Source of the DNA: Kaistia algarum
GTDB lineage: Bacteria; Pseudomonadota; Alphaproteobacteria; Rhizobiales; Kaistiaceae
Assembly: GCF_026343945.1 (NCBI RefSeq)
Contig: NZ_JAPKNJ010000001.1
Coordinates: 2,294,001 to 2,358,000 of the forward strand
Length of the DNA: 64,000 bases
Direction of reading: 5' to 3'
Part shown: positions 25,197 through 29,910 of the stretch, in pieces
How positions within the stretch are numbered: position 1 is the stretch's first letter
Layout: the number at the start of each line of letters is the position of its first letter
Notes under the pieces: generated by a model
What the model was told of the DNA's origin: nothing
Database searches by the model: none
Seen by the model: the letters and a program-made list of their open reading frames with translations, nothing else
Made by a program: the position numbers and the translations under genes

Positions 25197-25858
25197 GCCT
25201 CTTCCTCGCGCTCATCGGACGAACCGCCCGCCTGTCGCTGCGCGCCGGGGGCGGGGCCTATACGGGACTGGTCTTCTTCCTCTCGGTCGTCGCCGTGGTG
25301 CCGTTCGGCGTCGGCCCGGACATGCCGCTGCTGGCGCGGATCGGACCGGCGATGCTGTGGATCGCGGCGCTTCTCGCCACGCTGCTCGGCCTGGATCGGC
25401 TTTTCCAGGACGACCGCGACGATGGAACGCTCGATCATCTGATGCTGTCGGGTCTGCCGCTCGAACTGGTCGTTCTGGCCAAGGCCATCGGACACTGGCT
25501 GGCGACCGGGCTGCCGCTGATCGTCGGCACGCCGGTCTTCGGGCTGATCCTCGGCCTCGACGCGCCGACGATCACGCTGGTCGCGGCGACGCTCCTGCTT
25601 GGAACCCCGGCACTGACCCTGATTGGCGCCATTGGGGCGGCGCTGATCACCGCGATGCGTCGTGGCGGTCTCGTGGTCGCGGTGCTGGTGCTGCCCTTCA
25701 CCATCCCAGTGCTGATCTTCGGCGTCAGCGCGATCTCGGGTGTGGGCGGCAATGGGCCGTCGACCGCGCCCTTTCTGTTTCTCGCTGCCTTCTCGCTGGC
25801 CTCGGCCGTTCTGGCGCCGATCGCGGCGGCCGCGGCGCTCCGTGCAGCCCTGGATTAG
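25193..25858 (+). CDS. ccmB: Heme exporter permease CcmB
   Basis: 221 residues with six hydrophobic segments and the CcmB signatures 'LDRLFQDDRDDGTLDHLMLSGLPLE' (shortened) and 'TPALTLIGAIGAALI'. It forms the membrane part of the CcmAB complex acting on haem-CcmC-CcmE at the inner membrane. Its stop overlaps that of the convergent putA by 4 nt. The usual next genes ccmC and ccmD do not follow and are not elsewhere in this window, so the cluster is split or they lie at another locus. Confidence 0.94.
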   Translation: MSLFLALIGRTARLSLRAGGGAYTGLVFFLSVVAVVPFGVGPDMPLLARIGPAMLWIAALLATLLGLDRLFQDDRDDGTLDHLMLSGLPLELVVLAKAIGHWLATGLPLIVGTPVFGLILGLDAPTITLVAATLLLGTPALTLIGAIGAALITAMRRGGLVVAVLVLPFTIPVLIFGVSAISGVGGNGPSTAPFLFLAAFSLASAVLAPIAAAAALRAALD

Positions 25859-28800
25859 CCGATCGTCATCAGGCTGGCATTGCCGCCCGCTGCTGCCGTG
25901 TTGGTGCTGATCGACATTTCCTCGACCAGCATGGCGAGCGGGAAATCCTCACGGCCGGCGGCAAGGCCCTCGGGCGATACCGCATGGACGGGGATGATGG
26001 GTCCATCCAGCGCCGCGAGTTCGATCTGCAGGCGGATCAACGCGTCGCCGCCGCCTTCGAACAGCACGGCCGCCACGGGGCTGTCGCGCTCGCTTTCCCC
26101 GAATACACGTTCCTGCAGGGATGTCGGCAACGCATTTCGGCCGAAGGGAGCATCGGCCGGAAGTACAGGGCGGTTTCCGGTGGCCAGGGCGGCGGCGACC
26201 GCGGCGTGGAACCCGGTCTCGGTCTCGGCCTGGACGAGGAGGCGACCGCGCGGGCGCAAGCGGTATTCGTTACGCTCGCCGACCGGGCCGGGCAGTTCGA
26301 GAGGCCGTGTCGATGGCGCCAGGGTGCGGTAGCGGTCAAATGATGTGGCTGCCGCAGACAGTCCACTTTCCTTCAGCCAGTCGAGATAGGCGACGAGGGT
26401 ATTCGTTGCTGTGCCGACCTGCCAGCTGGATGCGGCCGGATTCCCATGGCCAAGTCGCTGGAGATAGAGTGGGCCGCCGGCCTTCGGGCCTGTGCCCGAG
26501 AGGCCATTCCCGCCGAAGGGCTGAACACCGACGACCGCGCCGACTATGTTGCGGTTCACATAGATATTGCCGGCGCGAATGCTGCCAGTCACCGCCGCAA
26601 TCGTCTCGTCGATGCGAGTGTGCAGGCCGAAGGTGAGGCCATAGCCGGTGGCATTCACCGCCTCGATCAGGGCCGGCAGTTCGTTGCGACGATAGCGCAG
26701 GACATGCAGCACCGGACCGAAGACCTCGCGCTCGACATCGCCCAGCTCGCCGATCTCAATGAGGGCCGGGGGCACAAAGCTGCCGGTGGCCGTTTCTGGC
26801 GGAAGGGGCAGCGAGTGTACCCTGAAGCCTCGTTCGGCCATGGCGGCGATATGCGCCGAGAGCAGTGCCGCCGCCTCGGCGCGGATCACAGGGCCGATAT
26901 CCGTGGAGAGGCGATCCGGCTTGCCGATCGTCAGTTCGGCCATGGCGCCCAGGATCATCTCGATCGTGCGGTCGGCAATGTCCTCCTGCAGACACAGGAT
27001 GCGCAGCGCCGAACAACGCTGGCCCGCGCTGTCGAAGGCGGATTGCAGCACATCGGCTGTCACCTGCTCGGCGAGAGCCGAGGAATCGACGATCATGACG
27101 TTGAGCCCGCCGGTCTCCGCCACGAGCGGCACGTTGCGACCCTCCGGCGTCAGGCGCTCTGCGAGGCTCGCCTGGATCCGGCGGGCGACTTCGGTCGAGC
27201 CCGTGAACAGGACCGCGCGGGTTCGCGGATCGGCGACGAGCGCCGCACCGACGTCGCCTTCTCCCGGAAGGAGTTGCAGGGCCGCCGGCGGGATGCCGGC
27301 GCTGCGCAAGATGCGGATAGCTTCCGCCGCGACGAGGGGTGTCTCCTCCGCCGGCTTGGCCAGCACCGGATTGCCGGCCGCGAGCGCTGCCGCGATCTGG
27401 CCAGTGAAGATGGCGAGCGGAAAGTTCCACGGGCTGATGCAGACGGTCGGCCCCAGCGGGCGGCTGCCGTCGTCCGCCCGTTCCGCCTCGTCTGCGTAGA
27501 AGCGCAGGAAGTCCACGGCCTCGCGCACTTCCGAAACAGCGTTCGGGATCGTCTTGCCGGCCTCGCGCACCAGCAGGCCGATCAGCGAGATCATTGCGGC
27601 CTCGAACCGGTCCGCTGCCCGACGCAGGATCGCGGCGCGTTCGGCGGCGGGTGTCGCCGACCAGATCGGTGCCACCGCGTCGGCATGGTCGAAGGCGCTG
27701 GCGATATCGGCCGTGGCGGCGGTCACGGCGGAGCCCACGACGTCGCGGCGGTCGGCGGGGTTGCGGATCGTCTCGGCCTTGCCTTCGTGAATTTCGCCGC
27801 CGACCATCGGCCGCGCCTGCCATTTCCGGCTGCCTTCGCCGACAAGATGGGCCGCGAGCGTGGCAATCTGCGGCTCGCTGGCGAGGTCGAGGCCCAGCGA
27901 GTTGATCCGCGCGCCATGGATATGGCGCGGCGGCCGGATGGAGGGATGCGGGCTCCCCATGGGCACCAGCGCGGCGGCCTCGGCGACGGGATCGGCGACG
28001 AGGTCCTCGATCGGTACCGCCGGATCGGAAACGCGGTTCACGAACGACGTATTGGCGCCGTTCTCCAGCAGGCGGCGAACAAGATAGGCGAGCAGCGTCT
28101 CATGTGTTCCGACCGGCGCATAGATGCGACAGGGGCGGCCGAGGCGATCGGCACCGACGACCTCCTCATAAAGCGGCTCGCCCATGCCATGGAGACATTG
28201 AAACTCATATTGGCCGGCATAGAAGTTCGCGCCGGCCATCTTCATGATCGTCGCCAGGGTCTGCGCGTTGTGGGTGGCGAATTGCGGGAAGATCGCGTCC
28301 GGCGCGGCGAGCAGACGCCTGGCGCAGGCAAGATAGGAAACGTCGGTGTGGAGCTTGCGCGTAAAGACCGGGAAATCCTCCAGTCCTGCCTCCTGCGCAC
28401 GCTTGATCTCGCTGTCCCAGTAAGCGCCCTTCACGAGGCGCACCATCAGCCGCCTCCGGCTGCGTCGGCCAAGATCGATAAGGTAGTCGATGACGAAGGG
28501 GCAGCGCTTGCCATAGGCCTGAATGACGAAGCCGATGCCGTTCCAGCCTTCCAGTTCGGCATCGAAGCAAAGCGCTTCCAGGAGGTCGAGCGAGAGTTCG
28601 AGTCGATCGGCCTCCTCCGCATCGATGTTGAGGCCGATATCGTAGCGCCGCGCGAGGCGGGCGAGGCTCGTAAGGCGCGGCAAGAGTTCGACCATGACGC
28701 GTTCGGCCTGGGCGCGCGAATAGCGTGGATGCAGCGCCGATAGCTTGATCGAGATGCCGGGGCCTTCATAGATGCCGCGTCGGCCGGCTGCCTTGCCGAT

Positions 28801-29670
28801 CGCGTGGATCGCCTGCTCATAGGCCGCGAAATAATGATCGGCATCCGCTGCCGTCATCGCGGCCTCGCCGAGCATGTCGTAGGAATAGCGGAAGCCTTTC
28901 GCCTCCATGCGCCGGCTGTTGGCGAGGGCCTCGCCGATTGTCTGTCCGGTGACGAACTGCTCACCCATCAGCCGCATGGCGATCTCGACGCCCTTGCGGA
29001 TCACGCCTTCTCCGCCGCGCCCGATGAGGCGTGACAACGCCGACGAGAGTCCTTCCTCGCTGGATGTGCCCGTCAGCCTCCCCGTTACGACCAGACCCCA
29101 GGTGGCGGCGTTGACGAAAAGCGACGGGCTCTGACCGACATGGGCGCTCCAGTCGCCGGCGGCAATCTTGTCGCGGATCAGCGCGTCGCGGGTCGCGCGA
29201 TCGGGAATCCGCAGCAGCGCTTCGGCAAGGCACATCAGCGCCACGCCTTCCTGAGTGGACAGCGCATATTCGCGGATGAGGCCCTCGACGCGGCCGGATC
29301 CGGGCTTGGCGCGCAGTCGCTCGACCAGATCGCCGGCGATAGCCGCCGCCTCGGCGCGGGCGACGTCCGGAAGCGCGGCCTCCGAAATGAGCAGCGGCAT
29401 ACATTCCAGTTCCGGGCGCCGCGCCGCCGCGGCGATGCGGGCTCGCAGCAGGCTCAACGAGCGAACGCTGCGCGCCAGATCGAGAAACGGCATCTCCGGC
29501 GAATCGGAGCCGGAAATCGAGCCGGCTTCCGTGCCCTCGGCATCAGTGATCGCCATGAGCAGGCCCTGCTTCGCCAGGGCATGGGGCGATTTTCCGAGTT
29601 CCGCCGCAGCCGCCTGCAGTCGCGCCTTCCATTCCTCGTCGACCTTGATGCCGATCGTGGTGGTACCCAT
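25855..29670 (-). CDS. putA: Trifunctional proline utilisation protein PutA (RHH repressor / proline dehydrogenase / P5C dehydrogenase)
   Basis: 1271 residues. Residues about 5-45 form a ribbon-helix-helix DNA-binding domain ('IGIKVDEEWKARLQAAAAEL'). The FAD-dependent proline dehydrogenase barrel follows in the middle ('GPGISIKLSALHPRYSRAQ', 'RLVKGAYWDSEIKRAQ'). The aldehyde dehydrogenase part has 'SPWNFPLAIFTGQIAAAL', Glu in 'VAETGGLNVMIVD' and catalytic Cys in 'DSAGQRCSALRIL'. It oxidises proline to glutamate and, when not membrane-bound, represses its own gene. ATG 29670 has AGGAG 7 nt upstream. The RHH domain fits the phased operator array found just upstream. Confidence 0.96.
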   Translation of the reverse strand: MGTTTIGIKVDEEWKARLQAAAAELGKSPHALAKQGLLMAITDAEGTEAGSISGSDSPEMPFLDLARSVRSLSLLRARIAAAARRPELECMPLLISEAALPDVARAEAAAIAGDLVERLRAKPGSGRVEGLIREYALSTQEGVALMCLAEALLRIPDRATRDALIRDKIAAGDWSAHVGQSPSLFVNAATWGLVVTGRLTGTSSEEGLSSALSRLIGRGGEGVIRKGVEIAMRLMGEQFVTGQTIGEALANSRRMEAKGFRYSYDMLGEAAMTAADADHYFAAYEQAIHAIGKAAGRRGIYEGPGISIKLSALHPRYSRAQAERVMVELLPRLTSLARLARRYDIGLNIDAEEADRLELSLDLLEALCFDAELEGWNGIGFVIQAYGKRCPFVIDYLIDLGRRSRRRLMVRLVKGAYWDSEIKRAQEAGLEDFPVFTRKLHTDVSYLACARRLLAAPDAIFPQFATHNAQTLATIMKMAGANFYAGQYEFQCLHGMGEPLYEEVVGADRLGRPCRIYAPVGTHETLLAYLVRRLLENGANTSFVNRVSDPAVPIEDLVADPVAEAAALVPMGSPHPSIRPPRHIHGARINSLGLDLASEPQIATLAAHLVGEGSRKWQARPMVGGEIHEGKAETIRNPADRRDVVGSAVTAATADIASAFDHADAVAPIWSATPAAERAAILRRAADRFEAAMISLIGLLVREAGKTIPNAVSEVREAVDFLRFYADEAERADDGSRPLGPTVCISPWNFPLAIFTGQIAAALAAGNPVLAKPAEETPLVAAEAIRILRSAGIPPAALQLLPGEGDVGAALVADPRTRAVLFTGSTEVARRIQASLAERLTPEGRNVPLVAETGGLNVMIVDSSALAEQVTADVLQSAFDSAGQRCSALRILCLQEDIADRTIEMILGAMAELTIGKPDRLSTDIGPVIRAEAAALLSAHIAAMAERGFRVHSLPLPPETATGSFVPPALIEIGELGDVEREVFGPVLHVLRYRRNELPALIEAVNATGYGLTFGLHTRIDETIAAVTGSIRAGNIYVNRNIVGAVVGVQPFGGNGLSGTGPKAGGPLYLQRLGHGNPAASSWQVGTATNTLVAYLDWLKESGLSAAATSFDRYRTLAPSTRPLELPGPVGERNEYRLRPRGRLLVQAETETGFHAAVAAALATGNRPVLPADAPFGRNALPTSLQERVFGESERDSPVAAVLFEGGGDALIRLQIELAALDGPIIPVHAVSPEGLAAGREDFPLAMLVEEMSISTNTAAAGGNASLMTIG

Positions 29671-29691
29671 CGTGCTCTCCTGCGATGGTCT

Positions 29692-29746
29692 GGTTTTACC
29701 ATCGGCGATAGACGGGTGCAACCACCTGAATGGTTCGGGTTTAACC
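29692..29746. promoter_or_regulatory. putA promoter with three GGT-N3-ACC elements spaced exactly 23 bp
   Basis: GGTTTTACC (29692-29700), GGTGCAACC (29715-29723) and GGTTTAACC (29738-29746) have centres at 29696, 29719 and 29742, so spacing is 23 bp each time. On the minus strand TTGCAC (29721-29716), a 17-bp spacer and TAAAAC (29698-29693) form a plausible promoter for putA. Its -35 falls in the middle element and its -10 in the proximal one. The middle element contains GTTGCA, the core bound by E. coli PutA. Binding by the PutA RHH domain is inferred. Confidence 0.6.
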
Positions 29747-29910
29747 GAGGTCTTCGTGAACCATGTCCGCGATCAGGCCTTCATCGATAGGCCGATCCGG
29801 AGACAGGAACGGTATCGAGCCGCACCGAATCGTGGCATTTCCGAGTCGGCCGCGAGTTGCGATAGCGTGGATGCTGTGCTAACGAACGCGCGGCTTTCGG
29901 GCGGGCCAAT

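Follow-up and report, generated by a model that had tools for sequence, protein, structure and literature searches.

The window, a stretch of 64,000 nucleotides of Kaistia algarum DNA, carries putA on the minus strand with atpH as the divergent gene beside it. Upstream of putA, three GGT-N3-ACC boxes start at 29692, 29715 and 29738 and have their centres at 29696, 29719 and 29742, in two steps of 23 bp, and 21 bases separate the proximal box from the putA ATG at 29670 (Table 1). The initial annotation had described three boxes at an exact 23-bp spacing, which is borne out by the coordinates; the arrangement is far above chance.

Table 1. Features of the putA upstream region in the window (coordinates are window positions).
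Feature	Position	Strand	Description
putA	25855..29670	-	1271 aa; RHH, proline dehydrogenase and aldehyde dehydrogenase domains
RHH DNA-binding domain, putA codons 1-46	29533..29670	-	alignment to 2gpe and 2rbf
Possible fourth box	29659..29667	-	plus strand GGTGGTACC, putA strand GGTACCACC; putA codons 2-4
Ribosome site AGGAGAG	29675..29681	-	from the sequence
Proximal box	29692..29700	-	plus strand GGTTTTACC, putA strand GGTAAAACC; 23 bp from the middle box
Proposed putA -10 TAAAAC	29693..29698	-	from the sequence, putative; within the proximal box; implied start near 29686
Middle box	29715..29723	-	plus strand GGTGCAACC, putA strand GGTTGCACC; same sequence as the site in the E. coli PutA crystal
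Proposed putA -35 TTGCAC	29716..29721	-	from the sequence; inside the middle box; absent from the calls of the consensus scan
Distal box	29738..29746	-	plus strand GGTTTAACC, putA strand GGTTAAACC; 23 bp from the middle box

The encoded PutA unites the domains of both enzyme activities, proline dehydrogenase and P5C (aldehyde) dehydrogenase, in one chain (PF01619, PF14850, PF18327 and PF00171), and its residues 1-46 align with the ribbon-helix-helix (RHH) domain in the E. coli PutA structures 2gpe and 2rbf. The domain matched five distinct PDB sequences of PutA RHH structures with E values from 3.8e-7 to 5.9e-6; the third structure match, 2jxg, is presumably the RHH domain of P. putida PutA. 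These domain and structure matches confirm the N-terminal RHH domain that had been proposed from the reading frame. Strand residues 5, 7 and 9 of the PutA domain face the DNA bases. The residues corresponding to Thr5 and Lys9 are the same in all 17 aligned domains. The closest named PutA is that of Kaistia hirudinis, with 79% identity across the first 250 residues.

The box alone is only about twofold enriched in the window (14 matches of GGTN3ACC against 7.4 expected), and it is therefore the phased pair that is the rare feature. In a pattern search, GGTN3ACC-N14-GGTN3ACC has no second occurrence in the whole 5.26-Mb genome, and no pair with gaps of 12-15 exists elsewhere in it, whereas the control pattern read backward gives four matches per strand. 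A chance arrangement, in keeping with the weak enrichment of the single box, has a negligible probability given that the pair is unique and that boxes recur before RHH-putA genes; it is ruled out by the whole-genome search and by shuffles.

The middle box matches the DNA site in the E. coli PutA structure 2rbf, cGGTTGCACc, for which the table in PMC4655474 gives the base-readout positions GGTTGCAC. The earlier statement that GTTGCA, recognised by E. coli PutA, sits in the middle box is correct, while the suggestion that the operator is undescribed does not hold for the box itself, which is the known E. coli PutA site. For phased PutA operator arrays in Alphaproteobacteria, a literature search of openly licensed papers found no description; the array belongs to the known category of PutA operators, with a lineage and an arrangement that are new. 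In the two flanking boxes, GGT and ACC are retained around the centres TAA and AAA instead of TGC, and the middle box is the predicted strongest PutA site.

E. coli PutA is an established autogenous repressor of putA and putP that acts through its RHH domain (PMC8249747, PMC5293562), and the sole E. coli target reported by gSELEX is the putA/putP spacer, which fits the single array in the present genome. The likeness extends to the RHH family, to the identity of the middle box with the crystal site, and to the position of the sites upstream of PutA's own gene. The arrangement is different, however: the E. coli put region has a single GGTGCAACC besides four copies of GGTN3ACC with one mismatch, and the E. 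coli sites are spaced 25, 45 and 132 bp apart (outside 21-23) in a region shared by putA and putP, whereas the window has three boxes at exactly 23 bp, two of them with AT-rich centres. The E. coli type of divergon, with putP divergent from putA, is not found here, as atpH occupies that side.

MetJ, Arc and other RHH repressors likewise have small pseudo-palindromic sites in a row, each bound by RHH dimers. MetJ boxes are contiguous 8-mers, whereas the PutA boxes are about two turns apart, a spacing that suits a much larger protein.

The boxes are conserved upstream of RHH-putA genes well beyond the window. In 57 non-redundant upstream regions of 250 nt, GGT-N3-ACC occurs 84 times against 2.9 expected (100 dinucleotide shuffles, largest value 8), and the gaps N0, N1 and N4-N8 are near chance. 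The two-base gap is also raised (14 occurrences in seven upstreams against 2.8), partly because of GGTTAACC in two upstreams of Alcaligenaceae type (L045 and L082), where this two-base-gap form replaces GGTTGCACC before RHH-putA. The centre is TGC, on either strand, in 52 of the 84 boxes, and T follows 54 of 72 TGC-centred boxes.

An enlarged set of 132 sequences was reduced to 74 once similar ones were removed, and at least one exact box is present in 62 of these 74 upstreams (30/37 in Alphaproteobacteria, 32/37 in the others), with a pair at 21-23 bp in 26 and at 23 bp in 13. The remaining 12 have no exact box, and all of them contain near-matches of a class defined post hoc (GGTTGC, GCAACC or GGTTAACC). 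As a control, the 8680 bases upstream of 28 RHH-less putA genes contain a single box, and none occurs before the eight that come from the genus; "RHH-less" denotes here genes for which no alignment with the RHH part of the query was obtained, and starts were set at the nearest in-frame Met, some of which are doubtful (L093 and L100, the latter also with an internal stop). The conservation check proposed with the array was therefore positive, with strong enrichment in RHH-PutA relatives and 23 bp as the commonest step.

The statistics were compiled without L072 and L077 (too little upstream sequence), L181 and L200 (start not located), the duplicates L083-L089, L117 and L118, and the short RHH frames L120 and L121, which are not PutA; L129-L142, L155-L171 and L173-L178 are also outside them, and L097 and L105 were left out of the control for their short flanks. 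L124, which free end gaps had misclustered, was added manually to the 57-member set as its own representative. L230-L238 were found later and inspected separately; among them, the second-copy RHH-PutA genes L236 and L237 of two genomes have no box within 150 bases upstream; GGTTGCGCC boxes do occur before the other copies, L234 and L233.

PutA itself is not the only regulator that might bind such boxes and control putA. According to PMC6168545, putA of Caulobacter is activated by the Lrp-like PutR, and the regulon survey of Proteobacteria in PMC5343134 places putA under TyrR and HypR, the GntR-type HypR regulon including putA in Shewanellaceae and Aeromonas. An Lrp-like reading frame lies close to a bifunctional putA of the genus (L210), as putR would, and FadR-type sites also contain GGT-N3-ACC (TGGtaCgaCCA as tabulated in PMC4655474). 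An improbable origin of the boxes is nevertheless what we see in such a regulator, whether Lrp-like or of the HypR or FadR kind, as the boxes track the RHH part of PutA (62/74 upstreams with it, 1/28 without), the site is the one in the E. coli PutA crystal, and no boxes precede any of the eight RHH-less putA genes of the genus. Nor are the outer T and A of FadR-type sites conserved: among 72 TGC-centred boxes, 18 have a T ahead of GGT and 4 have an A behind ACC, and a FadR/GntR-type site of the form TGGTN3ACCA is accordingly unsupported. PutR, which controls putA in the same class, is a separate activator, and the bifunctional PutA of that system has no DNA-binding domain reported in PMC6168545; in the window, in contrast, the enzyme itself bears the DNA-binding domain and the sites look like repressor sites.

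An RHH profile search of 14 genus genomes gave a match in nine, of which seven are PutA (frames of 1292-1348 aa) and two are short frames. RHH-putA is divergent from atpH in all seven RHH genomes, and exact upstream boxes occur in six of them; the seventh (G004) has GGTTGCTCC-N14-GGTATAGCC, with one mismatch in each box at a 23-bp distance, and its sole exact match falls in codons 2-4. G004 and K. hirudinis (L003) share one and the same upstream sequence. Across the genus, GGTN3ACC-N12-15-GGTN3ACC matches in 7 of the 14 genomes: four matches are RHH-putA arrays (G000, G001, G005 and G013), and G002, G009 and G012 have one paired-box match each, away from their putA. The RHH genomes G004, G007 and G008 give no paired-box match owing to mismatches or a 33-bp step.

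The genus is split between RHH-PutA beside atpH and RHH-less PutA elsewhere (L090 of G010 and L210-L216). One genome (G010) has, besides a bifunctional PutA, a longer PutA frame with 64% identity to that of the window from residue 59, and this frame is without an RHH part and without upstream boxes.

The position of the boxes in the putA-atpH intergenic region would also be expected if they belonged to the divergent atp operon. However, the flank gives no PutA match, and the 600 bases preceding atpH are free of boxes, in all six RHH-less genus genomes where atpH could be located (the seventh, G006, yielded no atpH and is outside this count). A promoter-like motif upstream of atpH, TTGCGA-N17-TAACGA (window 29857-29885, plus strand), is kept in 13 of the 13 genus genomes with atpH found and is likely the atp operon promoter. 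An element of the atp operon is very improbable and was rejected, since this motif stays while the boxes are absent.

We consider PutA the predicted binder of the boxes and the autorepressor of putA, with a probability of roughly 85% from the comparisons of sequence made here. The autorepression operator suggested in the initial annotation is supported to this extent. One RHH dimer would occupy each pseudo-palindrome GGT-N3-ACC, strongly at the middle box and more weakly at the AT-centred flanking boxes, and PutA dimers on adjacent boxes, about two helical turns apart on the same face of the DNA, would help each other to bind. The proposed -35 (TTGCAC) and -10 (TAAAAC) would fall within the middle and proximal boxes, so that PutA on the DNA would keep RNA polymerase away, and when proline is plentiful PutA would leave the DNA for the membrane, as is described for E. 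coli PutA. Several observations count against this reading: in the DNase I footprint of Ralstonia solanacearum PutA on epsA, as given in PMC9132996, the box is absent; 12 of the 74 upstreams are without an exact box; the second copies L236 and L237 are boxless; the E. coli spacings are outside 21-23; and Caulobacter uses PutR.

The spacing of the boxes follows a helical pattern. Exact boxes no more than 70 bp apart form 58 pairs, of which 14 have a spacing of 23 bp, nine of 22, six of 21 and none of 24; a further nine are spaced by 31-34 bp and four by 10. The 29 pairs at 21-23 bp compare with a mean of 2.5 and a largest value of 9 in 5000 trials of random placement, and the 14 at exactly 23 with a null mean of 0.8 and a largest value of 6. 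The vector strength for an 11-bp period is 0.72 (null largest 0.455), and 0.55 for the 29 pairs outside 20-24 bp. These pair counts are not independent events, as some arrays contribute more than one pair, the window itself supplies two of the 14, and kinship among Burkholderiaceae remains. The exact 23 of the initial annotation survives as the mode of the spacings and not as a fixed number; it belongs to a roughly in-phase set of 10, 21-23 and 31-34 bp. In the genus, the distal-to-middle step is 23 bp in the window and 33 or 34 bp in five others, about one turn more (exact boxes in four, a mismatch in L116). Six upstreams from Cupriavidus and Pseudomonas (L055, L061, L066, L069, L071 and L074) have two sites separated by 10 bp, roughly one turn, and some of these sites are mismatched.

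On the minus strand, TTGCAC (29721-29716) and TAAAAC (29698-29693) have 17 bases between them, so that the motifs, the 17-bp spacing and the overlap with the boxes that were proposed earlier all stand; the match to consensus is weak (3/6 and 4/6), and the consensus scan for promoters does not call TTGCAC-N17-TAAAAC. Over the whole set, the excess of -10-like hexamers is greatest at exactly 17 bp downstream of GGTTGCRCC (z 5.8). The peak falls to z 3.6 when seven Burkholderiaceae with TACGAT or TAGGAT are removed and to 2.5 when the 23-spaced boxes are removed as well, and in these two reduced sets a distance of 28 bp scores 3.7 and 3.6. Among Alphaproteobacteria with at least two boxes, the proximal box is not significantly more -10-like than the other non-TGC boxes (10/20 against 10/27, p 0.55). 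On balance, we favour a putative promoter whose -35 and -10 are overlapped by the middle and proximal boxes.

Even spacing of PutA sites could also arise with non-cooperative binding, either because one large dimer needs the room of two turns or because the boxes cover promoter elements 17 bp apart. A 23-bp step places TTGCRC and the TNNNAC of the next box 17 bp apart, a geometry by which the promoter alone could favour 23 (and 22 with GTGACA), and the peak of -10-like hexamers at 17 agrees with it. The recurring steps of 10 and 31-34 bp are, however, not explained by a promoter spacer, and the distal box of the genus lies outside the promoter core and still keeps to 23 or 33-34 bp, a difference of about one turn. 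Independent binding is therefore unlikely, though it is far from negligible. Cooperativity through helical phase is the somewhat better supported, putative explanation; at 23 bp, about 2.2 turns, neighbouring boxes are imperfectly in phase. What is new here is phasing as an apparent general preference of PutA operators.

The centre of the box varies with the RHH residues of the cognate PutA. TGC-centred boxes make up 70 of 93 where residues 4 and 7 are Thr and Gly, and none of 10 where they are Gly and Ala, a combination found in four genus genomes; the other counts are 0/3 for Gly4/Gly7 (L152), 2/7 for Ser4, 1/2 for Gln4 and 0/1 for Val4. The PutA of the window has Thr4 and Gly7, and one of its three boxes has a TGC centre. 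In the four genus genomes the middle box is GGTGACACC and the middle-to-proximal step is 22 bp (the proximal box of L115 is mismatched), and GTGACA-N17 leads into the proximal box, with the -35 register chosen post hoc. It is suggestive that the residue change accompanies the change of box centre, with Gly4 present in two lineages only.

The subclade would have replaced TTxG by GTIA in the RHH strand, with Gly for Thr4 and Ala for Gly7; its box centres would have become GAC, ATT or AAT in place of TGC, and the distance from the middle to the proximal box would have shortened to 22 bp, against 23 otherwise. The 17-bp promoter spacer would be kept at the shorter step because the -35 shifts from TTGCAC to GTGACA inside the box. 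A subclade that combines changed RHH residues, changed box centres and a 22-bp step is also new here, and a recoding of the box, by which the operator code of the subclade was rewritten, is a tentative interpretation. Equally tentative is the joint reading, in which a whole-turn spacing grammar (about 10, 21-23 and 31-34 bp) across Pseudomonadota is combined with an operator code rewritten in one genus subclade.

These findings add an alphaproteobacterial group to those in which PutA probably represses its own gene; in this class, control of putA by the activator PutR has been described. The general spacing preference is relevant to the question of how an enzyme dimer of large size, with a single small DNA-binding domain, serves as a repressor. 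The joint alteration of RHH residues and box centres in the subclade makes RHH recognition directly testable with a few short oligonucleotides.

The possible fourth box has its centre 33 bp from that of the proximal box and may be coincidental; a box in codons 2-4 is present in three of nine upstreams with MG[ST]T starts. K. hirudinis (L003) has GGTTCCACC at the same putA codons. An inverted repeat, CCATCG...CGATGG (window 29667-29688), spans the putA ribosome site and start codon.
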